Translations under genes and position numbers: made by a program
Notes under the pieces: model-generated
What the model was told of the DNA's origin: nothing
The model's input: only the letters and a program-made list of their open reading frames with translations
The model's database searches: none
Shown here: positions 3,586 through 16,912 of the stretch, in pieces
Numbering within the stretch: position 1 is the stretch's first letter
How the letters are laid out: the number at the start of each line of letters is the position of its first letter
Assembly: GCF_022870865.1 (NCBI RefSeq)
Contig: NZ_CP091508.1
Span: 1-64,000 of the forward strand
DNA: 64,000 nucleotides
Direction of reading: 5' to 3'
DNA from: Uruburuella testudinis
GTDB lineage: Bacteria > Pseudomonadota > Gammaproteobacteria > Burkholderiales > Neisseriaceae

Positions 3586-4338
3586 TCAATGCACCCAGCG
3601 CGCATGCAGCTTGCGGGTGGCGGCATCGAGCAGCCAGCCGAGCGCGCCAATCAGCACAATGGCGGCCATCAGCTCAGAATAAGCCAGGCGGTCGCGGGTG
3701 TCGAGAATAAAATAGCCCAAGCCTTCGTTCACGCCCAGCATTTCACAGGGCACCAATACAATCCACACCACGCCGATGGCCAGCCGCAAGCCGGTGAGAA
3801 TGTGGCCGAACACGGCGGGCAGCATGATTTTAAACAGCATTTCGCGGCGGGTGGCGGCGAGCGAGTGGCCCAGTTGCAGCCATTGGCGGTCGATGGATTT
3901 CACCCCGGTGGCGGTGTTGAGCAGAATCGGCCACACGGCGGCAAAGGCGAGCAGAAAATAAATCGGCGCATCGCCGATACCGAGCAGCATCACCACCACC
4001 GGCATCCATGACAGCGGTGAAATCATGCGCAGAAACTGAAATGAGGTGCCGGTGAGCTTTTCCACCAGCGTCGACTGGCCGATCAGCAAGCCCAGCGGCA
4101 CCCCGAAAGCCAGCGCCCACAGCAGCCCCACTGCCACGCGCTTGAGGCTGGCAATCATGTGGCCGGTCAGTTGGTTGCTGATAAGCAAATCCCACAGGCT
4201 TTGAAAGGTGGGCAGCGGGGCGAGCATATTGGCCAACGGCATTTTTTGCGCCAGCAGCAGAGTGCCGGCCTGCCAGGCAATCAGCAGAATAATGAGACCG
4301 GCGGCGCTGAGGGCGGAGTTTTTCAGAGATGCGGACAT
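3586..4338 (-). CDS. ABC-1 importer permease (SsuC/TauC-like)
   Basis: A 250-residue inner-membrane permease of the nitrate/sulfonate/taurine type. It has about six hydrophobic segments and the BPD_transp_1 EAA region around residues 165-190. The segment FQFLRMISPLSWMPVVVMLLG is typical of SsuC/TauC/NrtB proteins. It is the last gene of a three-gene minus-strand set, ATPase (5884-6681), binding protein (4528-5697), permease. Its start has AAGGAA a few bases upstream. The gap before it (4339-4527) holds a DUS hairpin at 4386-4420 that could lower permease expression. Substrate specificity cannot be read from sequence. Aliphatic sulfonate, taurine or a related oxyanion are the family candidates. 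Confidence 0.88.
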   Translation of the reverse strand: MSASLKNSALSAAGLIILLIAWQAGTLLLAQKMPLANMLAPLPTFQSLWDLLISNQLTGHMIASLKRVAVGLLWALAFGVPLGLLIGQSTLVEKLTGTSFQFLRMISPLSWMPVVVMLLGIGDAPIYFLLAFAAVWPILLNTATGVKSIDRQWLQLGHSLAATRREMLFKIMLPAVFGHILTGLRLAIGVVWIVLVPCEMLGVNEGLGYFILDTRDRLAYSELMAAIVLIGALGWLLDAATRKLHARWVH

Positions 4339-4385
4339 GGGGTTCCTTAAAATGGTGTGCTGAAAATAGTGTGTTGTTTTTTATA

Positions 4386-4420
4386 AAGGCCGTCTGAAAG
4401 GGCTAGCTTTCAGACGGCTT
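4386..4420. terminator. Inverted DUS hairpin inside ABC-1 operon
   Basis: AAGGCCGTCTGAAAG and its complement lie in the 189-base gap between the binding-protein and permease genes. It may cause partial termination within the operon. Confidence 0.5.
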
Positions 4421-4527
4421 GGCGGGACACGCCTTAGGGTTTGTTACCTCTCCCTAACCCCCTCCCATAGGAGCGGGAAGCAAGGTGCAGGCCGTCTGAA
4501 ACTTTTTGGGCTTTTCTCTGCCATCCT

Positions 4528-5697
4528 TCACACCGCAATTATTTCCTCGCGCGTCCAGCCGTTCAGCCCAAACACTTGCTGAAACTGCCCCGCTTCAACC
4601 GCCTGCTTCACAAAGCGGTCGTCTACCAAATCCTGCGCGGCAAAGGCGGGGCTGAGCGTATCGAGGAAGCGGTTAACGCCCGCAATATGGGTTTCTTTGA
4701 GCATTTCCACCAGCTTTTCGGTATAGGAAGGATAGGGGTAGGGCTGGAAATCGATGCGGTTTTGATGCCATTCGGGGTGGCGGATAATGCCCGTTTCGGT
4801 GTAGCGCGCCCAGGCATCGGGGGCGGGGGCGAGCACGTTTTGCAACACCGCATCTTCGTGCGGGGTGTATTTGTTCGGCCCTTGTTTCGACAGCATCCGC
4901 GCGGTGTCGGTGCGATGGCCGGCGGCGTAGGCTTGGCCTTCTACCAATGCATTCACCACGTTTTGCACCCATTCGGGGCGGCGGTTGATGTCGTGTTCCT
5001 GCATCAGCGTTACGCAGCAGGCATGGTCGCGCCACACGTCGCCGGAAAAGCGCAACACCTTGCCCACACCCTTGCTTTCGGCCACGGCGTTAAACGGTTC
5101 GGCCACGATAAAGCCGGCAATGGCGCGGTTGGCCAGCGCCGCCACCATGTCGGAAGGCGCCATCACGCTGAGCTTCACTTCGCCGGCCTGCGGGTTTTTC
5201 TCCACCACTTTGAGGCCGTTTTCGCGCAAGATTTTCTGCAACACCACATTGTGAATCGAATACCAAAACGGTATCGCCACGGTTTGCCCGCCCAAGCCGG
5301 CAATCGTGTCGATATCGGGCGCCACCGTCAGCGCCGAGCCGGCCATGTGGTTCCACATCACCACTTTAATCGGCGAGGCGCTGCCGTAACGCGCCCAGAT
5401 GCTCATTGGCGACAATAAATGAATCAGGTTGACCTGGCCGCTGAGAAAAGCTTCCACCAGCGAGGCCCAGCTGCGGAACAACACCGGTTTTTCAACATTG
5501 GCCACGCCGTGTTTTTCAAACAAGCCCTGCGCGTGTGCCACCAGCAGCGGCGTGGCGTCGGTAATCGGCAGATAGCCGATTTTCAGCGGCGCATCAGGGT
5601 TTTGCGCTGCCTGCCGCCCGCAGGCCTGCAACAGCGGCAGGCTGCCGGCGGCGGTAAACAGGGCGGCGAGTTTGAGGAAATCGCGGCGGCTGGTCAT
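4528..5697 (-). CDS. ABC-1 periplasmic binding lipoprotein (SsuA/NrtA-like), Tat-exported
   Basis: A 389-residue solute-binding protein. The N-terminus MTSRRDFLKLAALF is a twin-arginine signal and is followed by a lipobox-like LLQAC at about residues 22-26, so it is probably a Tat-exported lipoprotein anchored facing the periplasm. The body matches the NMT1/THI5-like and SsuA superfamily (KIGYLPITDATPLLVAHAQGLFEK). This superfamily binds sulfonates, nitrate, bicarbonate and similar small anions. It belongs with the ATPase encoded upstream and the permease downstream. An AAGGAA ribosome binding site lies five bases from the ATG. The ligand is not identifiable by eye. Confidence 0.88.
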   Translation of the reverse strand: MTSRRDFLKLAALFTAAGSLPLLQACGRQAAQNPDAPLKIGYLPITDATPLLVAHAQGLFEKHGVANVEKPVLFRSWASLVEAFLSGQVNLIHLLSPMSIWARYGSASPIKVVMWNHMAGSALTVAPDIDTIAGLGGQTVAIPFWYSIHNVVLQKILRENGLKVVEKNPQAGEVKLSVMAPSDMVAALANRAIAGFIVAEPFNAVAESKGVGKVLRFSGDVWRDHACCVTLMQEHDINRRPEWVQNVVNALVEGQAYAAGHRTDTARMLSKQGPNKYTPHEDAVLQNVLAPAPDAWARYTETGIIRHPEWHQNRIDFQPYPYPSYTEKLVEMLKETHIAGVNRFLDTLSPAFAAQDLVDDRFVKQAVEAGQFQQVFGLNGWTREEIIAV

Positions 5698-5810
5698 GAT
5701 GGATTCCTTGTATGTGTGTTTTATTGTGATGGATTTTATCGGCGGCCGTCTGAAAGCGGATTTAATTCAACGGCAGTGTGCGGCGACAGGCTGCCGGATA
5801 CCCTTTCATC

Positions 5811-5873
5811 GCCATTCACAAAAGCAAGCGAACAAGGCGGGCCAACGCTGCTGAGTTGTGTTTGTGAATGGGT
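5811..5873. repeat. Family 2 short inverted-repeat element
   Basis: The element starts CCATTCACAAAAGCAAGCGAAC and ends TTTGTGAATGGGT, about 63 bp, with imperfect terminal inverted repeats. It fills the gap between the ABC-1 ATPase and binding-protein genes and is followed at once by a DUS copy. Confidence 0.65.
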
Positions 5874-5883
5874 TTCAGACGGC

Positions 5884-6681
5884 CTAAATCACAAATTCCA
5901 CCGTTTCCACCTGGTGTTTGTGGCCGTGGGCATCGCGCAGAGCCTGTAAAATCTGCACCCGTTCCGGGTTCATTTCCAGCAGCGAATCGTGGCGCGGGTA
6001 AGGCAGGTTCAACACCCATTCGCCGATTTGGCGGCCGGGCTTGTTGCCGATGAGAATGGCGCGGTCGGCCAGAATCAGCGCCTCATCGATGTCGTGCGTC
6101 ACCATCACCGCGCTGGCGTTGTGGCGGCTGATCAGCGCGCGCAGCAGGTCTTGCATTTCAGTGCGGGTTACGGCATCCAGCGCGGAAAACGGCTCGTCGA
6201 GCAGCCAGATTTCGGGGTTGCGCGCCAGCACCCGCGCCAACGATACGCGCTGCGCCATGCCGCCTGAAAGCTCGCCCGGAAACATCTCGGCCGCGTGCGC
6301 CAAGCCCACTTCTTCGATGGCCTCGTCTACCCGCGTTTTGCGCTCGGCGCGGCTTAACAGCGGCTGGCTTTTGAAATCCAGCCCAAATGCCACATTGTCG
6401 CGCACGTTCAGCCAAGGCAGTAAAGCCGCCTGCTGAAACACAAACCCCAACCGCGGGTGCGGCCGGGTAACGGCTTCGCCAAACAGGCGCACTTCGCCGC
6501 TCAAAGGCTTGGCCAGCCCCGCCAATACCCGCAGCAGCGAGGATTTGCCCACACCGCTGGGGCCCATCAGGCCGATAAGTTCGCCCTCTTTTACCTCCAG
6601 CGAAAAATCACGCAACACGGTGTTGATGCCGCCGTTTTGCGGGTAGCCGAGCGTGATGTGGCGGGCGGAAAGCAGGGTCAT
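5884..6681 (-). CDS. ABC-1 importer ATP-binding protein (SsuB/TauB-like)
   Basis: A 265-residue cytoplasmic ATPase. Walker A GPSGVGKSS (about 40-48), Q-loop FVFQQAALLPWL, signature LSGGMAQR (about 140), Walker B IWLLDEPFSALD and the H-loop VTHDIDEA are all present, so it should be active. The family hydrolyses ATP to drive uptake of sulfonate, taurine or nitrate. It is the first gene of the ABC-1 set, with GAGGA five bases before its ATG. The upstream region has a dyad-symmetric A+T-rich site (6758-6780) that could bind a LysR-type regulator. Confidence 0.92.
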   Translation of the reverse strand: MTLLSARHITLGYPQNGGINTVLRDFSLEVKEGELIGLMGPSGVGKSSLLRVLAGLAKPLSGEVRLFGEAVTRPHPRLGFVFQQAALLPWLNVRDNVAFGLDFKSQPLLSRAERKTRVDEAIEEVGLAHAAEMFPGELSGGMAQRVSLARVLARNPEIWLLDEPFSALDAVTRTEMQDLLRALISRHNASAVMVTHDIDEALILADRAILIGNKPGRQIGEWVLNLPYPRHDSLLEMNPERVQILQALRDAHGHKHQVETVEFVI

Positions 6682-6757
6682 AAAGCATCCTCAAAGGGGT
6701 AATTTGGCGAGCTTGTGACTATAAATACGCGGTGGCAAAAAGGGAAAGAATATTCCA

Positions 6758-6780
6758 AGCTATCTAAAGAATTTTTAGCT
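6758..6780. promoter_or_regulatory. Dyad-symmetric A+T-rich site upstream of ABC-1
   Basis: AGCTA and TAGCT flank an inner near-palindrome CTAAAGAATTTTTAG. The location, 77 bases upstream of the ATPase start, and the dyad resemble a LysR-type operator of the kind that controls sulfonate and taurine transporters. This is inference from symmetry and position only. Confidence 0.3.
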
Positions 6781-6968
6781 ATAAGCAAGGGCGTGTCGGT
6801 TGCTGCGGCTGTAACAGTGCTTTAAAGGCCGCCAAGCGCAGACGGTATAAACCGTGCCCGTTTGAAAACGCAAGCCGGCCAAAGTGGCAAGGCGGTTTCA
6901 GACGGCCATTTGCCGAATCGGCGGATTTCGGTAGAATAAACACACCCACCCAACCCGGAATACGCCCC

Positions 6969-7700
6969 ATGAGCCTGTATCAAAAACTGCCCGACCCGAT
7001 TTTGCGGGAAGAAACCCGCCGCGAAATCAAAGCGCGCGAGTCTTACCATGTGTTGAAAATCATTTCCGAATTTGTCGAAGCGGGCGAGGAGCTGCATGCC
7101 ATCCAGCCGGCGGTGAGCATTTACGGCAGCGCGCGCACCCGGCCCGACCACGCCGATTATCTGTTTACCGAGCGGCTGTCGCGCAAGCTTTCCGATGCCG
7201 GTTTTTCGGTGATTTCCGGCGGCGGCCCCGGCATCATGGAAGCCGCCAACAAGGGGGCGTTTGCCGGTAAAAGCCCGGCGGTGGGGCTGAACATTGTGTT
7301 GCCGCACGAACAACACGGCAATCCGTATCAGGATTTGTCGATTAAATTTCAGCACTTTTTCCCGCGCAAAGTGATGTTTGTGAAGCATGCCGTGGCTTAT
7401 GTGGTGATGCCCGGCGGCTTCGGCACACTGGACGAGCTGTTTGAAAGCCTCACACTGGTGCAAACCGGCAAAACGCCGAGCCGGCCGATTATTTTAGTCG
7501 GGCGCAGCTTCTGGCAAGGCCTGGTGGGCTGGATTCAGGAGCAGCTGTTGGGCCGGGGGCTGATTTCGGCCGCGGATTTGGATCTGTTTCACATCATCGA
7601 TGATGAAGACGAAATCATCGAATATATTTTCCGGCATTATGATAAGATTAACGAAGAGTTGTGCTCGCCGACGGATAACAGTTGGACGCTGGGCTTGTAA
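6969..7700 (+). CDS. LOG-family nucleotide 5'-monophosphate phosphoribohydrolase (TIGR00730)
   Basis: A 243-residue Rossmann-fold protein of the lysine-decarboxylase-like LOG family. It has the diagnostic SGGGPGIMEAANKGA (about 82-96) and PGGFGTLDE (about 154-162) motifs that hold the catalytic Arg/Glu and bind the nucleotide phosphate. Characterised members cleave the N-glycosidic bond of nucleoside monophosphates, including cytokinin ribotides. It is cytoplasmic and transcribed as a single gene, ending at the bidirectional DUS terminator shared with cynS. No link to the neighbouring transport genes is evident. Confidence 0.9.
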   Translation: MSLYQKLPDPILREETRREIKARESYHVLKIISEFVEAGEELHAIQPAVSIYGSARTRPDHADYLFTERLSRKLSDAGFSVISGGGPGIMEAANKGAFAGKSPAVGLNIVLPHEQHGNPYQDLSIKFQHFFPRKVMFVKHAVAYVVMPGGFGTLDELFESLTLVQTGKTPSRPIILVGRSFWQGLVGWIQEQLLGRGLISAADLDLFHIIDDEDEIIEYIFRHYDKINEELCSPTDNSWTLGL

Positions 7701-7792: not shown

Positions 7793-8242
7793 TCAATACG
7801 ATTTATACGGCAGGAATTTGCCCGACATCACGATATTCACACGGTCGCCTTTCGGGTCGGCTTCACGCTGGATATCCATTGAGAAATCAATCGCGCTCAT
7901 GATGCCGTCGCCGAATTCTTCGTGAATCAGCGCTTTCATGGTGGTGCCGTATACGCTGATGACTTCATACAGACGGTAAATCAGCGGGTCGGTGGGCACG
8001 GCGGTGGGCAGACAGCCTTTATAAGGCACTTCTTGCAGCCATTTGGCGGCTTCTTCATCCAAGCCGAAAATTTCGGCCACGGTGGCGGCCTGCTCTGCAC
8101 TCAAGGCCATTTGGCCGAGACAGGCGGCGGTCACCCATTCTTTGCTCAAGCCGACTTTGGCGGCAACATCTTCCCACTTCAAGCCTTTGCTGACTTTGGC
8201 GGCGATAATCATTTCAGTAACATCGTTGCGGCTGGTAATCAT
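7793..8242 (-). CDS. cynS: Cyanase (cyanate hydratase)
   Basis: Cyanase (149 residues) converts cyanate and bicarbonate to ammonia and CO2 through carbamate, as a decamer in the cytoplasm. The N-terminal part is a lambda-repressor-like helical domain and the C-terminal part is the catalytic domain (DPLIYRLYEVISVYG...GDGIMSAIDF). Counting from the chosen start, Arg90, Glu93 and Ser116 correspond to the catalytic Arg96, Glu99 and Ser122 of the E. coli enzyme. The start at 8242 is preferred over an in-frame ATG at 8257 because AGGAG lies between them at good spacing. It is the last gene of the osmC-flavoprotein-rubredoxin reductase-cynS run on the minus strand. An adjacent C7/T8 tract lies in its leader. 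Its presence implies that cyanate is imported or made by the pathway. Confidence 0.95.
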   Translation of the reverse strand: MITSRNDVTEMIIAAKVSKGLKWEDVAAKVGLSKEWVTAACLGQMALSAEQAATVAEIFGLDEEAAKWLQEVPYKGCLPTAVPTDPLIYRLYEVISVYGTTMKALIHEEFGDGIMSAIDFSMDIQREADPKGDRVNIVMSGKFLPYKSY

Positions 8243-8268
8243 GGTATTGCTCCTCATGTGTGGTCATC

Positions 8269-8317: not shown

Positions 8318-9712
8318 CTAAGGCCGGCTGATGCGGATTTCGGCACTGACTTGCCGTTGCTGCATTTGCTGCAAACACAATTCTTCGGCGCTGTTTTTCT
8401 GCACTGCCCAAGCGGCGTCGCGGTCGGGGCTGCCCGATACCACCACCGACAGGCTTTTGGTTTTCAGACGCACCACCGGCTCGCTGTGGGCATAGGGCGC
8501 ATGTGTCTGCCCCATGATTTCGGCGGCGATGATGTCGGCCTGCGCTTGCAGCGGCGCAATAAAGCGGCAGGCTTTGCCGTTTAAATCGATGCAGTCGCCC
8601 AAGGCATAAATATCAGCCACGCTGGTTTGCAAGGTGTCGGGGTGCACGCGGACGCCGCTGGCGGGGTGGAAATCCAATCCGGCGCGTTCGGGCAGGCGGG
8701 GGTCGGTTTTCAGCCCGGCGGCCACCACAATCTGGTCGGCCACATCCAGATAGGCGATGCCGGCCGTGCCGATGCTGCTGAGCCGGTAGCTGCCGTCTTC
8801 TGCCCGCGCCGCGCCGCTCACATGGCGGCCGCCGCAATAGCGTATGCCCTGACTGTGCAGCGCTTCGGCCAAGCGCCGCCCCGCCTGCTCCGGCAACAGG
8901 CCGCAGAGCGGGTATTCGGCGCGGTCGATAATGGTCACGCGGTGGCCGGCGCGGCTGATGTCTTCGGCCAGCTCGGTGCCGATCATGCCGCCGCCGACTA
9001 TCACCACCCGCTGCGGGCCTTTGGCCAACGCTTTTTGCAGGCCGTCGAAGCCGGTAAGGTGGTTGATGCGCCAGCAATATTGCGGCGGCAACACGTCGGG
9101 CATAAACGGGGTGGCGCCGGTGGCGAATACCAGTTTGTCGTAGGTAAAGGCGCCGCGGGTGGTGCGGATTTGTTTCAGACGGCTGTCGATATTGAGCACA
9201 AAGGTTTTCGGCAGCAGGCTCAAGTTGAGTTCGGCGGCGGCACTGCTGCCGGTTTTTTTCACGATTTTGGCCGCATCAACGCCTTTGCTGATGGCCACCG
9301 ACAACTCGGGCTTGTGGTAACGGTCGCCGTTGCAGGCGGTAACCATCAGCATGGGGCTGGCTTCATCCAGACTGCGCACGGCTTCGGCCACTGCCCAGCC
9401 GGCCATGCCGCCGCCGAGAATAATCACGCCGTAGTGGTCTGCAGGCGCGGTGGTGGTTTGCTGCGGCACGATATTGAGTACGCGCGGAATAAATAATTCG
9501 AAATCGCCTTTGCCCACGCCGCACAAGGGGCAGACCCAATCATCGGGAATCTCTTCAAATTTGGTGCCGGGGGCGATGCCGCTGTCGGGGTCGCCTTCCA
9601 CTTCGTCGTAAATCAGACCGCAGGCCCGGCAGATGTATTTTTTCCAACTGTCGTCGGCGGGGTTGAGGGCGTTTTGCACGCTTTGGGCAAGGGGGGTGGC
9701 GGGGGTGTTCAT
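8318..9712 (-). CDS. Rubredoxin fused to FAD/NAD(P)H-dependent rubredoxin reductase
   Basis: A 464-residue electron-transfer fusion. Residues about 23-75 are a rubredoxin with both CxxC iron ligands (YICRACG, C28/C31; WVCPLCG, C61/C64). The rest is a pyridine-nucleotide-disulfide-type flavoprotein with an FAD Rossmann motif ([12 protein letters not shown], about 95), an NAD(P)H motif ([14 protein letters not shown], about 236) and the second FAD motif ([10 protein letters not shown]). Such reductases pass electrons from NAD(P)H to rubredoxin and then to an oxygenase or peroxide/superoxide reductase. Its start codon overlaps the flavoprotein stop (9709-9712), which argues for coupled translation and makes that flavoprotein its likely partner. 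Separate rubredoxin and reductase genes are also common in other bacteria. Confidence 0.92.
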
Positions 9713-10863
9713 GCGGGCATCTCCTCAGTGAGCAGTTGCTGTGCCAAAAAGCGCAGGTGCTTGATGGCGGGGGTTACGATGGCGACAAACTGCGCCTCGC
9801 GCACGCGCCGCTGGGCGGATGCGGCGGCCAGATAGCCGCGGGCGCCGGTGTGCATCAGCGCCGCTTCGCTGGCCCGCAGGCAGTATTTCGCTCCTTGTGC
9901 GCGCAAATCGATCACATCGAGCAGAAAATCTTTGCCGGTATCAAACGGTGTTTGTGCCATTTCGCGGGTTTGTTTGGCGGCGGCATCGAGCAGAGTTTGC
10001 AGGCCGCCGGCTTGGTCTTCGAGAAACTGGTTGACATGGCCGAGCTGGTCTTCCACGCTTTTGATGTCGTCGATGCAGCCTTCGATAATGCCCAGCCCCA
10101 AGCCCATTTGCAGCAAGATGAAGGCGGCGCGGATTTTCAAGATAAACGGTTTGGCCGGGTCGGCAATGATGTCGTCGTGCGGCACGAAATAGTCTTTCAG
10201 GCCGATGCCGTAGGTGCCGCTGCCTTCCATGCCGCTGAATTTGGGGCATTGGCGCAATTCGGCACGCTCATCCAGCCGCAGCAGAAACAGAATATCGTAG
10301 GGGGCGCCGGCGCTTTCCACCTGCGCCACGGCGCCGCAATACTGGCCGCGGCCGATGTGGCTCACCCACGGCAGGCTGCCGGAAACGCTGTAGCCGCCGT
10401 TCACTTTTTTCGCCCGCAAGGCCATCGGCTCAATGTCGGTCCAGGCTTTCATGGGGTTGGAAAGGGCGGTGCCGCCGAAGGTTTGGCCGTGCATATGGCT
10501 TTGAATCACGCTGCCGCTGTGAATGGCGGGGTTTTCCGATTGGTCGAGATAGAGCCCGCAGGCATGGTGCGCCCAGGTCATAAAACCGGTGGTGCCGCAC
10601 ACCCGGCTCACGGCGCGCATGGCATCAATGGCCAAATCAAAACGCAGCCCCTGCGCGCTCATGTGCGGGGCGAGCGCACCTGCGGCGCCGAGTTGGGCCA
10701 TGATGTCGAGCGGGTAATAGCCAAGATCGATATCATAGGTTTTCGGGGCAAGCGCTTCGCGGGCAATGCGGTTTGTGTCGGCCAGCACTTTGGCGCCGTC
10801 GGCCCATTCGGGTACAAACAAAGCGGGCGGGTGTTGCAGGAATTCGGAGCTGAGCGGGGTCAT
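9709..10863 (-). CDS. Acyl-CoA dehydrogenase-fold flavoprotein, DszC/SfnB-like
   Basis: A 384-residue protein with the acyl-CoA dehydrogenase fold. An N-terminal helical domain, a middle beta domain (around [13 protein letters not shown]) and a C-terminal helical domain (ending [16 protein letters not shown]) can be traced. The sequence lacks the usual beta-oxidation signatures and reads more like flavin-dependent monooxygenases of the DszC/SfnB type, which oxidise sulfur or nitrogen compounds using reduced flavin. The start at 10863 is chosen because AGAAAGG lies at proper spacing. An in-frame ATG at 10929 has none. It overlaps the rubredoxin reductase gene by four bases. The exact substrate is unknown, and assignment as an oxygenase rather than a dehydrogenase is inference from context. 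Confidence 0.8.
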
Positions 10864-10954
10864 GGTGGCTGCCTTTCTGTGCGTGTGTTTCAAAGCGTTT
10901 TTGAATAAAATCCGATTGATTGCATTCAAAAAAGTTTTGGAAAAAGTTTGGGGT

Positions 10955-10997: not shown

Positions 10998-11537
10998 TTA
11001 CAAGGTGCTGATTTCAAAGGCCACCGGGTTGCGCATGGTGTTGGCTACCGGTGAGAAATAATTGGCGTGCTGCACGATTTCGGCCAGCGTTTCTTTATCG
11101 GCATCGCCGTCGATGTCGATTTTGACGCGGATGGCCTGAAAGCCCATTTGCGCAGGTTCGCGCTCGGCGCCGCCGGCACCCCAAGCGGCGGTGTTGCCGA
11201 TGTCGGCTTCGAGAAACACTTCGAGCTTGCTCAGTTTCACTTGGCGGTGGGTGGCCACGGCCACGATGCCGACGGTGAGGCAGCCGCCCAGTGCGCTCAG
11301 CACCACTTCGCCCGGTGCCGGCGCGGTGTTTTCGCCGAAGAGGTGGTAAGGCTCGTCGACCACCACGCCCGGGTGGCAGGGGTCGCCGTTGGTGAGGTAG
11401 CTGATGGTGCGGAATTTGCCCACTGATACGGTGTGCACTTTGTTGGTGCCTTTGCGGTCGGGGTTTTCACGGCCGGCGGCGGCGAATTTTTCCAGGCCTT
11501 CGGCATCGATGGGGCGCAGGTAAGTGGTTTCGGTCAT
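10998..11537 (-). CDS. OsmC/Ohr family protein
   Basis: A 179-residue protein of the OsmC fold. It shows the segment PAPGEVVLSALGGCLTVGIVAVATHR, with the single resolving-type Cys in the helix GGCLT, and RQVKLSKLEVFLEADIG. Many family members reduce organic peroxides with two cysteines. Here only one clear conserved Cys is visible, as in the YhfA/OsmC-like branch, so peroxidase activity is uncertain. It is first in the minus-strand gene run that ends with cynS. A near-consensus sigma-54 promoter lies 74 to 89 bases upstream of its start. It may protect against or process a reactive intermediate of the pathway. Confidence 0.88.
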   Translation of the reverse strand: MTETTYLRPIDAEGLEKFAAAGRENPDRKGTNKVHTVSVGKFRTISYLTNGDPCHPGVVVDEPYHLFGENTAPAPGEVVLSALGGCLTVGIVAVATHRQVKLSKLEVFLEADIGNTAAWGAGGAEREPAQMGFQAIRVKIDIDGDADKETLAEIVQHANYFSPVANTMRNPVAFEISTL

Positions 11538-11610
11538 GCGGATTCTCCTCAGGGAACAATAATCGGGTGTGTGTTACAGGCGTGGGTTGCAGCCTGCCTG
11601 AAAAGAGTAC

Positions 11611-11626
11611 AGCATTTTGCGTGCCA
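11611..11626 (-). promoter_or_regulatory. Sigma-54 promoter of the osmC-cynS operon
   Basis: Read on the minus strand the site is TGGCACGCAAAATGCT, against the consensus TGGCACRNNNNTTGCW. The GG and GC doublets are ten bases apart, as required. Transcription should start near 11600, about 60 bases before osmC. Confidence 0.8.
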
Positions 11627-11644
11627 ATTCTTGTTTTTATTGTT

Positions 11645-11657
11645 TTTCAAGGATTTA
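11645..11657. promoter_or_regulatory. Possible IHF site
   Basis: TTTCAAGGATTTA differs at one position from the IHF consensus WATCAANNNNTTR. It lies between the putative activator site and the sigma-54 promoter, where DNA bending would be expected. A+T-rich DNA produces such matches easily. Confidence 0.3.
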
Positions 11658-11681
11658 AGATATTTCTTATGACCATACAAA

Positions 11682-11703
11682 GTTGACAATGTCGACATTG
11701 TTG
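11682..11703. promoter_or_regulatory. Putative upstream activator site for the osmC operon
   Basis: GTTGACAATGTCGACATTGTTG contains the perfect 16-base palindrome at 11686-11701. Its GTTGACAATGT arm matches two sites upstream of the divergent importer operon. It lies 56 bases upstream of the sigma-54 promoter, a typical distance for enhancer-binding proteins. The regulator encoded next door is the obvious candidate to bind. Confidence 0.6.
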
Positions 11704-11719
11704 CGGCGCTGTCCGACAA

Positions 11720-11753
11720 AAAGGCCGTCTGAAACATGCATTCAGACGGCCTC
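11720..11753. terminator. DUS terminator of the sigma-54 activator gene
   Basis: AAAGGCCGTCTGAAA and its complement flank a short loop, 18 bases after the activator stop codon. It separates the activator transcript from the osmC operon. Confidence 0.7.
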
Positions 11754-11770
11754 GAAACCGATACGGCTGC

Positions 11771-13360
11771 TTAAAGGTTTCTCAATTTGTCGAGCCGGTA
11801 ATTAAACTGCCGCGCGGTCAGCCCCAACATTTGTGCGGCCTGGGTTTTGTTGCCGCGGCATTGCGCCAGCACCTGTTCCAATTCGGCCAGGGTGTGCGAT
11901 TCGGCCTGCATATAAGGGCGTACGGCAAAAGGCTGCATCATCGGGTTGGGCTGCGCGGGGGCGCCGTATGCGCTGTGGACGGCCGTCTGAAACAGGGGCT
12001 CTGCTTCCACCTGCTGCAACAGCGGCAGCACCGCATTTTCATCGGCAATGGCGCCGGGCGAGAGCAACACCAGCCGTTCCAACACATTTTCAAGCTGGCG
12101 GATATTGCCGGGCCAGTGATACTGCTGCAAGGCTTTCACGCCGGCGGGCGTCAGGTTGACGCTGCGTTCGTTTTCCTGATTGATGCGGTTGAGAAAATAA
12201 GCGGTCAGCTCGGGAATGTCTTCGCGCCGCTCGCGCAGGGGCGGCAGCTGGATGGGGATGACATACAGGCGGTAATACAAATCTTCGCGAAAGCGCCCCA
12301 TGCGCACTTCTTCGGCCAAATGGCGGTGGGTGGCGGTCACCACGCGCACGTTGATTTTGGTTTCGCGGCGGCTGCCCAGGCGGGTAACCGTGCCCTCCTG
12401 CAGCGTGCGCAACAGCTTGCTTTGCACCGCCAGCGGCAATTCGCCGATTTCATCTAAAAAAATGGTGCCGCCGTCGGCCTGTTCAAACAAACCGGCGCGT
12501 TCGTGGCGGGCATCGGTAAAAGCGCCTTTTTCGTGGCCGAATAATTCTGATTCAAACAAACTTTCGGGAATGGCCGCGCAATTGACTTTGATAAACGGCT
12601 TGTCGGCGCGCGGGCTGGCGGTGTGCAGCGCGCGGGCAAACATTTCTTTGCCGGTGCCCGATTCGCCCAGCAGCAACACATTGGCATTGCTGGCCGACAC
12701 CTGCTCCAAATCGTTGATGGCTTTGAGCAGCGGCCGGGAAGAGCCGATGATGCCGTAGCGGCGCGAGCTGGCCATCAAGGCCTTTTGCAGCATGGCGTTT
12801 TGGTCGAGCAAGGTTTCGGCACGCGCTTCGGTGGCGGCGTGCCAGTGCAGCAGCTGCGCGGCCAGAGTGGCGAGAATCTGCAACATGGCCATATCGTCGT
12901 GCATGGCGCGCTCGCTCAAGCGCAAACGGTGGCAGGCCAGCACGCCGATGCAGCGGTGCTCCGCCATCAGCGGCAGGGCGATGAACGACACTTTTTCGGG
13001 CGGCAGATCGCTTTTATCGACCGCGCGGCCGAGAAACAGGCGGTCTTGGCGGATATCCTGCACGATAATCGGATGCCGGTCGGCAAACACGGTGCCGGTA
13101 ATGCCTTCGCCATGGTGGTAACGCCCGCGCGCTTTTTGTGCTGCCGTCAGCCCGTAGGCATAACGGATGCTGAGCGTGGTGCCGTTGGTTTCGGGCAGAA
13201 TGATGCGCCCCCGGTTCAAACCCAACAGCTCCGACATCAGGTGCAGCATGGTTTTCAGCGCCGCATCGGGCGTGCCGCCTTTGCCGACATTCTGCATCAC
13301 CTGCTGCAACAGCAGAATTTCCAAAGCCCGCCCGTGGCTGTCTTTTTTTTCTTTTTCCAT
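11771..13360 (-). CDS. Sigma-54-dependent activator, GAF-AAA+-Fis (NifA-like)
   Basis: A 529-residue enhancer-binding protein. A GAF sensor domain covers about residues 25-175. The AAA+ domain (about 205-435) has Walker A GESGTGKE, Walker B GGTIFLDEIGE and the sigma-54 contact loop written GAFTDA instead of GAFTGA. A Fis-type helix-turn-helix ends the protein (GNKTQAAQMLGLTARQFNYRL). It should activate RNA polymerase-sigma-54 after sensing a small ligand in the GAF domain. It sits between two sigma-54 promoters, both with similar upstream sites, so it likely controls the osmC-cynS operon and the ABC-2 importer. An A8 run lies at codons 5-7 and could switch the gene off by slippage. Confidence 0.93.
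   Translation of the reverse strand: MEKEKKDSHGRALEILLLQQVMQNVGKGGTPDAALKTMLHLMSELLGLNRGRIILPETNGTTLSIRYAYGLTAAQKARGRYHHGEGITGTVFADRHPIIVQDIRQDRLFLGRAVDKSDLPPEKVSFIALPLMAEHRCIGVLACHRLRLSERAMHDDMAMLQILATLAAQLLHWHAATEARAETLLDQNAMLQKALMASSRRYGIIGSSRPLLKAINDLEQVSASNANVLLLGESGTGKEMFARALHTASPRADKPFIKVNCAAIPESLFESELFGHEKGAFTDARHERAGLFEQADGGTIFLDEIGELPLAVQSKLLRTLQEGTVTRLGSRRETKINVRVVTATHRHLAEEVRMGRFREDLYYRLYVIPIQLPPLRERREDIPELTAYFLNRINQENERSVNLTPAGVKALQQYHWPGNIRQLENVLERLVLLSPGAIADENAVLPLLQQVEAEPLFQTAVHSAYGAPAQPNPMMQPFAVRPYMQAESHTLAELEQVLAQCRGNKTQAAQMLGLTARQFNYRLDKLRNL
13343..13350. repeat. Homopolymer T8 (A8 in coding sense) in activator codons 5-7
   Basis: Eight T on the plus strand correspond to GAAAAAAAAG in the coding strand near the start of the activator. 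Loss or gain of one base would frameshift nearly the whole protein. Confidence 0.6.
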
Positions 13361-13431
13361 CCGCCGCTCTCTTTACTGTGTGGTTGTTCAGGCCGTCTGA
13401 AACGGTTTTGCTCTGGCTCATTATGATTTGA

Positions 13432-13462
13432 ACATTATCAACGGATTGTTTGAATTGTCAAC
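13432..13462. promoter_or_regulatory. Tandem putative activator sites for the importer operon
   Basis: ACATTATCAAC (13432-13442) and GAATTGTCAAC (13452-13462) are spaced 20 bases start to start, about two helical turns. Both resemble ACATTGTCAAC, the complement of the arm at 11682-11692. They lie 53-83 bases upstream of the sigma-54 promoter at 13515. Confidence 0.55.
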
Positions 13463-13484
13463 AATGTAGAAAAATAAATTTATT

Positions 13485-13497
13485 TAACCATATGATT
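13485..13497. promoter_or_regulatory. Possible IHF site
   Basis: TAACCATATGATT matches the complement of the IHF consensus at all but one position. It lies between the activator sites and the sigma-54 promoter, mirroring the arrangement at 11645. Confidence 0.3.
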
Positions 13498-13514
13498 TGC
13501 AATAAAAACATAAT

Positions 13515-13530
13515 TGGCACGCCAAATGCT
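13515..13530 (+). promoter_or_regulatory. Sigma-54 promoter of the ABC-2 operon
   Basis: TGGCACGCCAAATGCT matches TGGCACRNNNNTTGCW at all but one defined position, with the GG and GC doublets ten bases apart. Transcription is expected near 13541, 28 bases before the ATG of the binding protein. Confidence 0.85.
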
Positions 13531-13568
13531 TTATGTTTTTTTAAACACACCATCACAAGGAGCACCAC

Positions 13569-14951
13569 ATGCAGAACAACCGTTTCCGCCCCTACGATGC
13601 CGAGAGCACATTGGGCTTGTGCCGCTGCGGCCTGCACCATCCGCCCGGCGTCTGCCGCGACCCGCAGGCCGATGCCGGGCAAAACGGCGGAGAAGAAGCC
13701 TTGTCGCAAGATTTTGTCGAAGCCGCCGCCGTGCATGCGCTGTTTCCGCACGAGCCGACCCGGCGCGCGTTTTTAAAAGCGGTGGGTGCGGGCACGGCGA
13801 TGGCGGCCATCAGCAGCGTGCTGCCGCTCGACAGCCTCAAGGCGATGGCGGCCGAAACCAAAACGCAGGGCAATCTGGAAAAGAAAAACCTCAATATCGG
13901 CTTTATCCCCATCACCTGCGCCACACCGCTGATTATGGCCGACCCAATGGGTTTTTATGCCAAACAGGGGCTCAACGTTACCCTCAACAAAATCGCCGGC
14001 TGGGCGCTGGTGCGCGACCGCATGATGAACCGCGAGCTCGATGCCAGCCATTTTCTGGCGCCGATGCCGTTGGCCATCAGCATGGGTTTGGGCTCTGCGC
14101 CGCAAAATATGCAGGTGGCCTCGATTCAGAACATCAACGGCCAGGCGCTCACCATATCGCTCAAGCATGTTAACAACCGCAATCCGAAAAACTGGAAAGG
14201 CATGGTGTTTGCCATTCCTTTCGAGCATTCGATGCACAATTACCTGCTGCGCTATTTTCTGGCCGAACACGGCCTCGACCCCGACCGCGATGTGCAGCTG
14301 CGGCTCACTTCGCCGGCCGACATGATTGCCAATCTGCGCGCCGGCAATATCGACGGCTTTTTCGGCCCCGAGCCGTTTAACCAACGCGCCGTGTTTGACA
14401 AAGTGGGCTATATCCACACGCTCTCGCGCAATATCTGGAACGGCCACCCCTGCTGCGCATTCGGCACGTCGCAAGCGTTTATCGAACAAAACCCCAACAC
14501 CTTTTTGGCGCTCTACCGCGCCATTCTCAGCGCCACCGCCGCCGCCAATCAACGTGAAAACCGCCGTGAAATCGCCCGTGCCATTTCGGGGCCGAATTAT
14601 CTCAACCAGCCCGAAATCGTGGTGCGCCAAGTGCTTACCGGCCGCTTTGCCGACGGTGTGGGCAAGGTGCAGGATTACCCCGACCGCACCGGCTTTGATG
14701 CGCTGCCGTGGTATTCGTTTGCCGTGTGGATGCTCACGCAGATGAAGCGCTGGGGCTATGTGAAAGGTCAGGCAGATTACCGCGCGCTGGCCGAAAAAGT
14801 GTTTATGCTCACCGATGCGCAAAAGCAGATGCGCGCCTTGGGGCAGAGCGTGCCCGAACGCAACGCCTACGCCGGCTTCAACGTGATGGGCAAAGCCTTC
14901 GACCCCAACCGCCCCGATGCTTATACCGCGAGTTTCCAAATCAAACGCTGA
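13569..14951 (+). CDS. ABC-2 periplasmic binding protein (CmpA/NrtA type), Tat-exported
   Basis: A 460-residue solute-binding protein of the nitrate/bicarbonate/cyanate class. Unusually, 64 residues precede the twin-arginine motif TRRAFLK (64-70), and this extension contains a Cys/His cluster CRCGLHHPPGVC (C18, C20, H23, H24, C29). The mature part begins after about residue 95 (LNIGFIPITCATPLIMADPMGFYAKQ). It should bind a small anion in the periplasm and hand it to the permease encoded next. AAGGAG lies six bases before the ATG, and a sigma-54 promoter lies at 13515-13530. The linked cyanase suggests cyanate or a cyanate precursor as ligand, which is inference. Confidence 0.9.
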   Translation: MQNNRFRPYDAESTLGLCRCGLHHPPGVCRDPQADAGQNGGEEALSQDFVEAAAVHALFPHEPTRRAFLKAVGAGTAMAAISSVLPLDSLKAMAAETKTQGNLEKKNLNIGFIPITCATPLIMADPMGFYAKQGLNVTLNKIAGWALVRDRMMNRELDASHFLAPMPLAISMGLGSAPQNMQVASIQNINGQALTISLKHVNNRNPKNWKGMVFAIPFEHSMHNYLLRYFLAEHGLDPDRDVQLRLTSPADMIANLRAGNIDGFFGPEPFNQRAVFDKVGYIHTLSRNIWNGHPCCAFGTSQAFIEQNPNTFLALYRAILSATAAANQRENRREIARAISGPNYLNQPEIVVRQVLTGRFADGVGKVQDYPDRTGFDALPWYSFAVWMLTQMKRWGYVKGQADYRALAEKVFMLTDAQKQMRALGQSVPERNAYAGFNVMGKAFDPNRPDAYTASFQIKR

Positions 14952-15142: not shown

Positions 15143-16012
15143 ATGAAAAAAACCGTTTCCCCTTACGCCGCGCCGCTGGTGTCGCTGATGCTGCTCTTGG
15201 GCATGATTTTGATTTGGTATGCCGCCACCCTGCCGCCGCCGGCCGCCAGCTACACCCCGGAGCAGCGCGAATACGCAATCTTGATGGGCGATCTGCCTGA
15301 AGACGGCAGCGATGTGCCGGTGGGCAATCCTTCTGATTTTCCCACCCCCGCAGGTTTTGCCAAGCTGGGCTGGGATCATCTGTCGCAGCCGTTTTACGAC
15401 AACGGCCCCAACGACAAAGGCATCGGCATCCAGCTCGGCTATTCGCTGCTGCGGGTGTTGGCCGGCTATCTGCTGGCGGTGGCAGTGGCGATACCGCTGG
15501 GCTACATTATCGGCATGTCGCCGCTGATTTCCAAAGCGCTCAGCCCTTATATTCAGCTGCTGAAGCCGATTTCACCGCTGGCCTGGATGCCGATTGCGCT
15601 CTACACCATTAAAGATTCGAATATGTCGGCCATTTTCGTGATTTTCATCTGCTCGCTGTGGCCGATGCTGATGAACACCGCTTTCGGCGTGGCCAATGTG
15701 CGCAAAGACTGGCTCAATGTGGCCGCCACGCTGGAAGTCAAACCTTTCAGAAAGGCGTTCAAAATCATTCTGCCCGCCGCCGCCCCGGCCATTCTCACCG
15801 GCATGCGTATCTCGATGGGCATTGCCTGGCTGGTGATTGTGGCCGCCGAAATGCTGGTGGGCGGCACCGGTATCGGCTATTTTGTGTGGAACCAGTGGAA
15901 CAACCTTTCGCTGGGCAACGTGGTGTTTGCGGTGCTGCTGATCGGCATTGTCGGCATGTTGCTCGACATGAGCTTCGGCTGGTTGCAGAAAAAAGTTACC
16001 TATATTGAATAA
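15143..16012 (+). CDS. ABC-2 importer permease (NrtB/CynB-like)
   Basis: A 289-residue inner-membrane permease. One N-terminal membrane segment (LVSLMLLLGMILIWYAATL) is followed by a periplasmic insertion of about 75 residues and then five or so membrane segments with the BPD_transp_1 EAA loop. The phrase LLKPISPLAWMPIALYTIKD is characteristic of nitrate/bicarbonate/cyanate permeases. AAGGAA lies six bases before the ATG. The gap from the binding-protein gene is 191 bases and holds a family 2 repeat and DUS copies, but the three genes are codirectional and belong to one importer. Confidence 0.92.
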   Translation: MKKTVSPYAAPLVSLMLLLGMILIWYAATLPPPAASYTPEQREYAILMGDLPEDGSDVPVGNPSDFPTPAGFAKLGWDHLSQPFYDNGPNDKGIGIQLGYSLLRVLAGYLLAVAVAIPLGYIIGMSPLISKALSPYIQLLKPISPLAWMPIALYTIKDSNMSAIFVIFICSLWPMLMNTAFGVANVRKDWLNVAATLEVKPFRKAFKIILPAAAPAILTGMRISMGIAWLVIVAAEMLVGGTGIGYFVWNQWNNLSLGNVVFAVLLIGIVGMLLDMSFGWLQKKVTYIE

Positions 16013-16030: not shown

Positions 16031-16912
16031 ATGAGCATGACTACCCAACCCCTGAATACCAAACCGCTGATGGAAGTCGACGGCCTCGCCAAACGCTACC
16101 GCGCCGGCCAGCCCAATGTGTTTCAAGACATCCGCTTCGACATTGGGCGCAACGAATTTATCTGCGTGATCGGCCATTCCGGCTGCGGCAAGTCCACGAT
16201 TCTGAATATTTTGGCCGGGCTGGAAACCGCCAGCGAAGGCGCCGTGGTGATGAACGGCAAAGAAGTGGCCGGCCCCGGCCTCGACCGCGGCGTGGTGTTT
16301 CAAAGCCATGCGCTGCTGCCGTGGCTGACGGTGCGCGACAACATCGCCTTTGCCGTCCGCTCGCGCCACCCCAGTATGAGCAAGGCCGATGTCGCCCAGC
16401 GCGTGCAGCACTATATCGGCCTGGTCGGCCTCAGCCACGCGCTGGATAAAAAACCGAGCGAACTCTCCGGCGGCATGAAGCAGCGGGTGGGCATTGCCCG
16501 CGCGTTTTCAGTAGAACCGAAAATGCTGTTTATGGACGAGCCCTTCGGTGCACTCGATGCGCTTACCCGCGGCGTGATTCAAGACGAATTGCTGAAAATC
16601 GTGCAGGAAACCCGCCAAACCGTGTATATGATTACCCACGATATCGACGAAGCGATTTTGCTGGCCGACCGCATTTTCCTGATGAGCAACGGCCCCGAAG
16701 CCTGCATCGCCGAAATCGTGGTCAACACCATTCCCAAGCCGCGCAACCGCGAAAACATGCACCACGACCCGCGCTTTTACGCCATGCGCAACCACCTGCT
16801 CGATTTTCTGGTGCACCGCTCCAAAGCCATGCAGGCCGAAGGCATACGCCCGAAAGAGCCGCTGATTGTGTATCCGGGTGCAGAAGCAAACGAAACCTTA
16901 CAGGCCGTCTGA
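16031..16912 (+). CDS. ABC-2 importer ATP-binding protein (NrtD/CynD-like)
   Basis: A 293-residue ATPase with Walker A GHSGCGKST (about 50-58), Q-loop VVFQSHALLPWL, signature LSGGMKQR, Walker B MLFMDEPFGALD and H-loop ITHDIDEA. The C-terminal extension of about 40 residues (HHDPRFYAMRNHLLDFLVHRS) is typical of NrtD/CmpD-type subunits. It follows the permease by 18 bases with AAGGAG in front. It energises the ABC-2 importer. Its stop codon lies in a DUS copy and is followed by a DUS hairpin. Confidence 0.93.
   Translation: MSMTTQPLNTKPLMEVDGLAKRYRAGQPNVFQDIRFDIGRNEFICVIGHSGCGKSTILNILAGLETASEGAVVMNGKEVAGPGLDRGVVFQSHALLPWLTVRDNIAFAVRSRHPSMSKADVAQRVQHYIGLVGLSHALDKKPSELSGGMKQRVGIARAFSVEPKMLFMDEPFGALDALTRGVIQDELLKIVQETRQTVYMITHDIDEAILLADRIFLMSNGPEACIAEIVVNTIPKPRNRENMHHDPRFYAMRNHLLDFLVHRSKAMQAEGIRPKEPLIVYPGAEANETLQAV

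Follow-up and report, generated by a model that had tools for sequence, protein, structure and literature searches.

The first 64,000 nucleotides of contig NZ_CP091508.1 of Uruburuella testudinis (NCBI RefSeq assembly GCF_022870865.1, forward strand; this whole stretch is called the window below) provoke a question: does the regulator gene that lies there between a catabolic operon and an importer operon govern both through sigma-54, and what would such a circuit be for? The catabolic operon runs osmC, a flavoenzyme with the acyl-CoA-dehydrogenase (ACAD) fold, rubredoxin reductase and cyanase; the importer operon encodes an ABC transporter of the NrtABC type; and the two intergenic regions with the one regulator gene occupy positions 11537–13569. 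The DNA itself displays promoter-like sites and palindromes and shows that they are conserved and that they follow the regulator gene; binding, the inducer, the role of integration host factor (IHF), the substrate and the reaction of the flavoenzyme are what we infer. On this footing, the circuit is well supported and likely real, and a sigma-54 circuit joined to thiocyanate-type catabolism is, in our estimation, a probable explanation of the whole. An initial annotation had predicted a circuit of this kind; its observations were confirmed, and comparison of sequences supports and extends its interpretation.

Two outward-facing sigma-54 promoters had been claimed, and both cores are where that claim placed them. 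The first, TGGCACGCAAAATGC (11612–11626, minus strand), lies upstream of the osmC operon and starts 89 bases ahead of the osmC start codon; the second, TGGCACGCCAAATGC (13515–13529, plus strand), starts 54–55 bases ahead of that of nrtA. Both point away from the regulator gene and hold GG and GC at the fixed spacing, each is one mismatch from TGGCACG-N4-TTGC, and they are the sole exact matches to TGGCACGN5TGC in the window. By count alone they might be chance matches to a short consensus string: two exact cores per 64 kb are unremarkable, as 0.75 are expected and 12 of 60 shuffles contained at least two (first-order Markov shuffles, as in all such controls of core, palindrome and IHF counts below). 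The organism’s whole genome holds 16 exact cores vs. 7 matches to the reversed control pattern. Most of the 16 look coding by eye; four (the left and right window cores, one at aco and one at a rhodanese gene) were provisionally taken as intergenic. It is position and conservation, not string count, that make the window’s cores credible.

Conservation was assessed with the flavoenzyme as bait. Scanning genome contigs gave 450 stretches encoding a relative of this enzyme, and the best 80 of these, from alpha-, beta- and gamma-proteobacteria, were read together with the window and five fetched loci (86 loci in all, several from one genus). A core with no more than one mismatch stands upstream of the homologous operon in 49 of the 86, the window included (15 perfect, 34 with one mismatch), whereas shuffles predict 0.3 and the opposite-strand control gave none in 86. 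Most sites are found 80 to 142 bases ahead of the start codon, and the osmC promoter recurs in many members of all three classes. Closer to home, one same-genus relative (G043, loci L058/L061) was seen with the whole cluster, its proteins 81–96% identical to those of the window; both cores and both palindromes described below are conserved there, while the other intergenic stretches have diverged. Cores, palindromes and regulator thus co-occur, are conserved and are well placed. We give practically no credence to a chance origin of the sites, which was rejected on the 49 loci with a core against 0.3 expected and on the way in which the palindrome follows the regulator.

What, then, would the activator recognize? 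Sites of the type GTTGAYAATGT had been described upstream of each promoter. They are indeed present, as TTGACAATGT at 11683 and as variants at 13432 and ~13453, but as decamers they are weak evidence: eight with at most one mismatch occur in the window vs. 3.9 expected. Conservation instead falls on the palindrome that surrounds them, and the putative activator site is better written WTGTNNACAW. On the osmC side it reads ACAATGTCGACATTGT (11686–11701), of which two central letters differ in G043; on the nrtA side, ATTGTCAACAAT (13454–13465) is identical letter for letter in that relative (L058), and a weaker half-site, TTGATAATGT (13432–13441, minus strand), is partly conserved in it. The palindrome centers lie ~67 and ~55 bases upstream of the respective cores.

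The same element emerged from relatives without prior choice of a motif. Palindromes were counted over 68 anchored loci; the other 18 of the 86 were excluded because the stretch read held no site of up to three mismatches with 250 or more bases before it. When inverted repeats upstream of the sites were tallied without bias, TGTCGACA and close forms were found in 39 of the 68 loci vs. 0.15 expected, and WTGTNNACAW itself occurs in 43 vs. ~1 expected. Short forms by themselves are unspecific: TGTCGACA appears four times in the window, and the ATTGT form, WTTGTNNACAAW, at 48 places in the organism’s genome vs. 17 for its control. The true binding unit could be larger than one palindrome, because copies stand nine bases apart in 19 of the 68 loci.

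The palindrome also tracks the regulator gene, which is our strongest evidence that the neighboring regulator, and not another activator, uses the sites. Where the regulator is at least 50% identical to that of the window, 41 of 48 loci carry WTGTNNACAW. Of 12 loci with a more distant regulator, seven carry a form one base longer (TGTCNGACA), one the usual form and four neither; where there is no regulator at the locus, only one of eight loci has WTGTNNACAW. The organism does possess two further strong sigma-54 activators, PilR-like and AcoR-like by eye, and either could conceivably serve these promoters. This would leave the tracking of the neighboring regulator across bacterial classes unaccounted for, and a sigma-54 site near the AcoR-like gene is accompanied by TGTCAC repeats, with no WTGTNNACAW in the 220 bases upstream. 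Control by either protein was rejected on these two points and strikes us as very improbable. The core near the AcoR-like gene (L010, L004; 188–190 kb in the organism’s genome) is exact and, by eye, is probably the promoter of an acetoin operon.

The regulator that remains is encoded at 11771–13360 on the minus strand (529 amino acids). In agreement with the domain order proposed for it at the outset, GAF-AAA+-Fis, it matches Pfam PF01590, PF00158, PF25601 and PF02954; Sigma54_activat (PF00158) scores 240.9 bits, Walker A and B motifs and an AAA+ lid were found, and the helix-turn-helix (PF02954) is of the Fis type. Its partner is available: rpoN is intact in this strain, a 447-amino-acid open frame with its DNA-binding domain present (Sigma54_DBD, E 2.7e-57). 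Among 298 genomes of Pseudomonas (the genus of L070), three gave regulator matches at E <= 1e-130, namely L070’s own and two others that have the flavoenzyme cluster.

IHF sites had been proposed between activator sites and promoters. Each gap does hold a candidate with one mismatch to the IHF pattern WATCAANNNNTTR, at 11645–11657 (plus strand) and 13485–13497 (minus strand), but neither is significant alone (P ~0.20 and ~0.25). The first has the same position as an exact match in L061, and exact matches occur in 16 of the 68 relatives’ loci vs. 0.33 expected.

Although the circuit was predicted as a local one, and its two-sided layout is supported, it does not appear to be only local. A combined pattern of palindrome plus core, in two forms (TTGT, run over 46 genus genomes, and ATGT, run over the organism’s own genome), matched four places in the organism’s genome, and reversed controls matched none. 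Two of the four are the window promoters. A third, at G000:C1:160591, lies inside a TauE-like coding frame (L147:3566-4363) and was taken as chance. The fourth stands ~40 bases before a gene for a transporter of the formate/nitrite family (FNT; L146:4786-5797, at 1594.8 kb of G000:C1, the organism’s own contig); its core is TGGCATGGCGCTTGC, and its palindrome falls within a long inverted repeat.

A further candidate target is a two-domain rhodanese gene (L022:1501-2423; G000:C1:1752176). An exact core ends 45 bases upstream of it, and a degenerate palindrome, ACAATGTTGCCATTG, lies further upstream; the rhodanese gene of G043 (L150) has the same ACAATGTTGCCATTG and the core TGGCACACGCCTTGC. A search of 83 family genomes for this rhodanese at E <= 1e-60 yielded two, the organism’s own and G043, which are the two seen with the complete regulator cluster (the cluster itself was searched for in these genomes with the flavoenzyme as query). 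For two picks from 83, the chance of such a coincidence is, as a matter of arithmetic, 1 in 3403. The organism’s rhodanese is 60% identical to one that lies between the regulator and osmC in Amphritea (L065).

Several observations weigh against the circuit as drawn here or against parts of it. The loci share ancestry, so the locus counts overstate independence, and neither palindrome form is present in 18 of the 68 anchored loci. Conservation beside homologous clusters, which had been expected for both promoters and palindromes, holds in G043 but not in two other Neisseriaceae, G037 and G054, which have the reductase and a flavoenzyme 54–68% identical; rpoN is present in both, and no sigma-54 site was found at the cluster. 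In G037 (L060), there is no regulator on the contig piece and no osmC either; in G054 (L059), the regulator is a 43.7% match over only 341 residues, and no full regulator is in view. As to the distant targets, the FNT gene occurs in one of the 83 family genomes at E <= 1e-40, which affords no test of conservation. Single matches outside conserved places, the FNT promoter among them, are not proof, since the TTGT form of the combined pattern gave six matches over the genus genomes (three in the organism’s own genome and one in the G043 orthologue) vs. four for its reversed control. Next, rpoN was sought in 28 picked genomes, weighted toward loci without a good site, and was present in 23; none was found in Moraxella catarrhalis (L077), an uncultured Moraxella (L097) and three Komagataeibacter (L123, L129, L135). 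A core with two or fewer mismatches is absent in all five of the latter, but 13 of the 23 genomes with rpoN lack it too, and often the regulator or osmC is missing there as well; the comparison is suggestive only. Finally, the inducibility of the circuit in this particular organism is doubtful, because the sigma-54 contact loop of the regulator reads GAFTDA, and the equivalent change in NorR escapes control by the GAF domain.

This last point opens an alternative: the regulator may be locked on, with GAFTDA bypassing the GAF sensor and the sigma-54 promoters constitutive in this strain. The altered loop is restricted to the window and L061, and GAFTGA is found in 62 of 70 regulator matches; according to PMC2941729, NorR G266D still forms open complexes at its promoters while escaping GAF repression. 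NorR belongs to a different activator family, however, as judged by an NCBIfam score below cut-off, and the GAF domain may act differently here. We consider a locked-on regulator rather unlikely. As a caution for this strain, regulation may be lost in part or altogether.

The loop is altered in another way in acetic acid bacteria. The three Komagataeibacter loci keep the palindrome without a -24/-12 site, and the loop is GAFPGA in the two that have the regulator in view (L129, L135). It is GAFPTA in a related locus on an Acetobacter plasmid (L055), upstream of whose osmC neither a -24/-12 site nor WTGTNNACAW was found. The Komagataeibacter activator has likely lost its sigma-54 role along with rpoN and still binds its site.

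Why are there two promoters in the window? In relatives among the 86 loci, a frequent order is regulator, osmC, flavoenzyme, rubredoxin reductase, nrtABC and cyanase on a single strand, and nrtA follows immediately after the reductase gene in 41 of the 56 loci that show it. Where nrtA is separated (15 loci, including the window and G043), a sigma-54 site precedes it in 12, of which seven also have a palindrome; where it directly follows the reductase, a site was found in three of 41. The stretch searched was 500 bases in the former group and shorter, the gap alone, in the latter. The second promoter, that of nrtA, would follow from a gene order in which nrtA is apart from the catabolic operon, and the layout of the window is best read as a split operon, the second half of which acquired or kept its own promoter.

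Both halves can be assigned gene by gene. On the minus strand, the catabolic operon begins with an OsmC-family protein (10998–11537; PF02566), continues with the ACAD-fold flavoenzyme (9709–10929; no Pfam match, assigned by fold comparison) and a rubredoxin fused to an NADH:rubredoxin-reductase-like, NorW-like flavoprotein (8318–9712; PF00301, PF07992), and ends with the cyanase CynS (7793–8257; PF02560, PF21291, and TIGR00673 above cut-off). On the plus strand, the importer consists of an NrtA/CmpA-like substrate-binding protein with a Tat-type signal (13569–14951; PF13379, TIGR01409), an NrtB-type permease (15143–16012; TIGR01183 above cut-off) and an NrtC/D-type ATPase (16031–16912; TIGR01184 above cut-off).

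We propose the following mechanism. A CynF-like sigma-54 enhancer-binding protein would bind palindromes of the type ACAATGTNNACATTGT or ATTGTNNACAAT, placed ~55–75 bases upstream of four -24/-12 promoters: those of osmC-flavoenzyme-rubredoxin reductase-cynS and of nrtABC, which flank the regulator gene, and those of the distant rhodanese and FNT-family transporter genes. Its AAA+ domain would remodel RNA polymerase-sigma-54, with IHF probably bending the intervening DNA, and importer and catabolic genes would be switched on together. Thiocyanate or a related cyano compound would most likely be imported; the ACAD-fold flavoenzyme, rubredoxin reductase and OsmC might yield cyanate and sulfane sulfur from it, after which ammonia and CO2 could be released by cyanase.

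The flavoenzyme is the unfamiliar member of this scheme. Fold comparison assigns it to the ACAD fold; the absence of a flavin monooxygenase among the 50 matches listed settles nothing. An invariant Thr386 would stand opposite the place of the catalytic glutamate of the short-chain ACAD type, as judged from an ungapped extension by eye, the hidden Markov model alignment stopping just short of it; the enzyme is perhaps without ACAD chemistry. A protein search found 4273 relatives at E <= 1e-60 among 7998 scored candidates, and the names among the 120 matches listed were acyl-CoA dehydrogenase (some AidB-like or FadE), hypothetical protein, or none. The organism also encodes a paralogue with 39% identity (G000:C1:1219659-1220711), and such matches occur in 31 of the 46 genus genomes. 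In G043, the flavoenzyme gene (L058:2034-3251, minus strand; same in L061) contains one in-frame stop, perhaps because it is a pseudogene or because the assembly is in error.

The substrate is most likely thiocyanate, which is pointed to by genes for cyanate nitrogen and for disposal of sulfane sulfur standing together. Across the 86 loci, the reductase is in view in all, osmC in 81, nrtA in 56, cyanase in 49 and a binding protein of a second ABC type in 12. Neighbors on the strand of the flavoenzyme include persulfide dioxygenase-like genes of two families (25 and four loci), TauE/SafE sulfite exporters (10 and seven) and rhodaneses (eight), and 36 of the 86 loci have at least one persulfide dioxygenase-like, TauE or rhodanese gene there. 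The persulfide dioxygenase label is given by similarity (NCBIfam Blh, 385 bits, below the 625 cut-off of a longer model). The control for sulfur-gene neighbors was small (46 short loci, 165 kb, vs. 1.43 Mb of cluster loci), and its sole match was the organism’s own rhodanese, so it yields no background rate. The cluster is also present in Methylorubrum thiocyanatum DSM 11490 (L104), with no cyanase visible in the locus read. That this species draws nitrogen from thiocyanate and cyanate is the title subject of Wood et al. 1998, as given in citing text, and Methylobacterium is listed among heterotrophs using thiocyanate for nitrogen in PMC5328954.

Two points tell against this assignment: it rests on the company that the genes keep, and cyanase is not valid evidence for a cyanate pathway, according to PMC5328954, which notes its presence in an organism that uses thiocyanate by the carbonyl sulfide pathway. 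The circuit could be real and its substrate another, namely cyanide in free form, cyanate itself or a nitrile-like compound; the flavoenzyme and sulfur genes would then serve detoxification. Cyanase is not in view in 37 of the 86 loci, some of which lie on short contigs. The CynF-controlled cynABDS genes of Pseudomonas pseudoalcaligenes CECT5344 come without a flavoenzyme (PMC6627978), and PMC11049912 and PMC5778177 describe a cyanide monooxygenase yielding cyanate as proposed, not experimentally demonstrated; rhodanese, moreover, detoxifies cyanide too (PMC13021748). Yet cyanate by itself requires no flavoenzyme, and release of sulfane sulfur is suggested by the persulfide dioxygenase-like genes and sulfite exporters that neighbor the cluster. 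We regard another substrate as a real possibility, albeit one that we do not favor over thiocyanate, and cyanide as the main alternative.

How does the circuit compare with known systems? Its kind is known from CynF, a sigma-54 activator required for expression of the cyanate genes on cyanate (PMC6627978). The additions here appear to be the flavoenzyme operon, a defined enhancer motif, the two-sided layout and the distant targets. As described in that text, cynFABDS of Pseudomonas pseudoalcaligenes/oleovorans CECT5344 shares three features with the window: the gene of a Fis-type sigma-54 activator runs divergently from an ABC importer, the cluster includes cyanase, and a sigma-54 promoter is predicted before the importer gene (cynA). 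It differs in having one target operon, and the text gives no enhancer motif. In the window, by contrast, importer and catabolic operons lie on opposite sides of the regulator, osmC, the ACAD-fold enzyme and rubredoxin reductase are added, and two distant targets are proposed. The likeness to CynF (BN5_0438) was drawn from gene layout and description. Two Methylobacterium loci (L096, L118) hold both versions together, one regulator standing before osmC and a second, a partial match, divergent from nrtABC-cynS.

Two known activators were considered for the identity of the regulator. NorR/norVW shares with the window a GAF-AAA+-Fis activator, several enhancer sites and sigma-54 (PMC2941729), and the rubredoxin reductase has a NorW-like flavoprotein domain, as in that system; no flavodiiron protein, however, is among the annotated cluster genes. 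The regulator was rejected as NorR, with an NCBIfam score of 361.4 bits vs. a cut-off of 476 and no GT-N7-AC motif in either intergenic region. NifA is its best NCBIfam match by score and has the same domain order, but unlike in NifA systems no nif genes are among the annotated cluster genes, and this identity was rejected as well (469.9 bits vs. a cut-off of 528.85; no TGT-N10-ACA in either intergenic region).

With respect to chemistry, the cyanate pathway of thiocyanate degradation ends in cyanase, as we propose for the window (PMC5778177). The first enzymes known for thiocyanate are a copper dehydrogenase and a hydrolase (PMC5328954 and PMC5778177), whereas an ACAD-fold flavoprotein with a rubredoxin reductase is the candidate here. 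A literature search of the open PMC subset found no described cluster of this kind by title or abstract; we do not claim that none is in print. Tentatively, and with some way to go before we would call it probable, we suggest an undescribed aerobic route to the nitrogen of thiocyanate (or cyanide) in many heterotrophic proteobacteria: a fused rubredoxin reductase would feed the ACAD-fold flavoenzyme or be fed by it, OsmC would take care of the sulfane sulfur, and cyanate would pass to cyanase, all governed by a sigma-54 activator dedicated to the route, which uses an enhancer motif of its own and would have been recast as an ordinary sigma-70 regulator in rpoN-less acetic acid bacteria. If this is true, the cluster supplies the missing enzyme together with the importer, the regulator and the DNA word that this regulator recognizes. 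Relatives of the putative circuit occur in many distantly related bacteria, and among them sigma-54 circuits would be found in a natural range of states: intact, split over two promoters, with the regulator lost, and with rpoN lost and the loop altered. For oral Neisseria, a link to salivary thiocyanate would be speculation only.

Partial and related clusters complete the survey. Moraxella/Psychrobacter loci (L075, L076, L077, L097) keep flavoenzyme and reductase, with nrtABC in three of the four and no osmC, regulator or cyanase in view. On a Klebsiella plasmid (L056:9914-11539), an activator with 43% identity lies beside ABC importers, a carbon-nitrogen hydrolase and a nitrile hydratase; this family of activators may also have a part in the use of other cyano compounds. 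In the window, a second ABC importer near cyanase (permease, SsuA/TauA-like binding protein and ATPase; 3586–6681, minus strand) is of a type that takes the place of nrtABC next to the cluster in Amphritea and Marinobacter. The region upstream of this second operon (6640–7010) showed no sigma-54 site with up to two mismatches. Between it and cyanase lies a gene of the LOG family (lysine decarboxylase-like; 6969–7700, plus strand).

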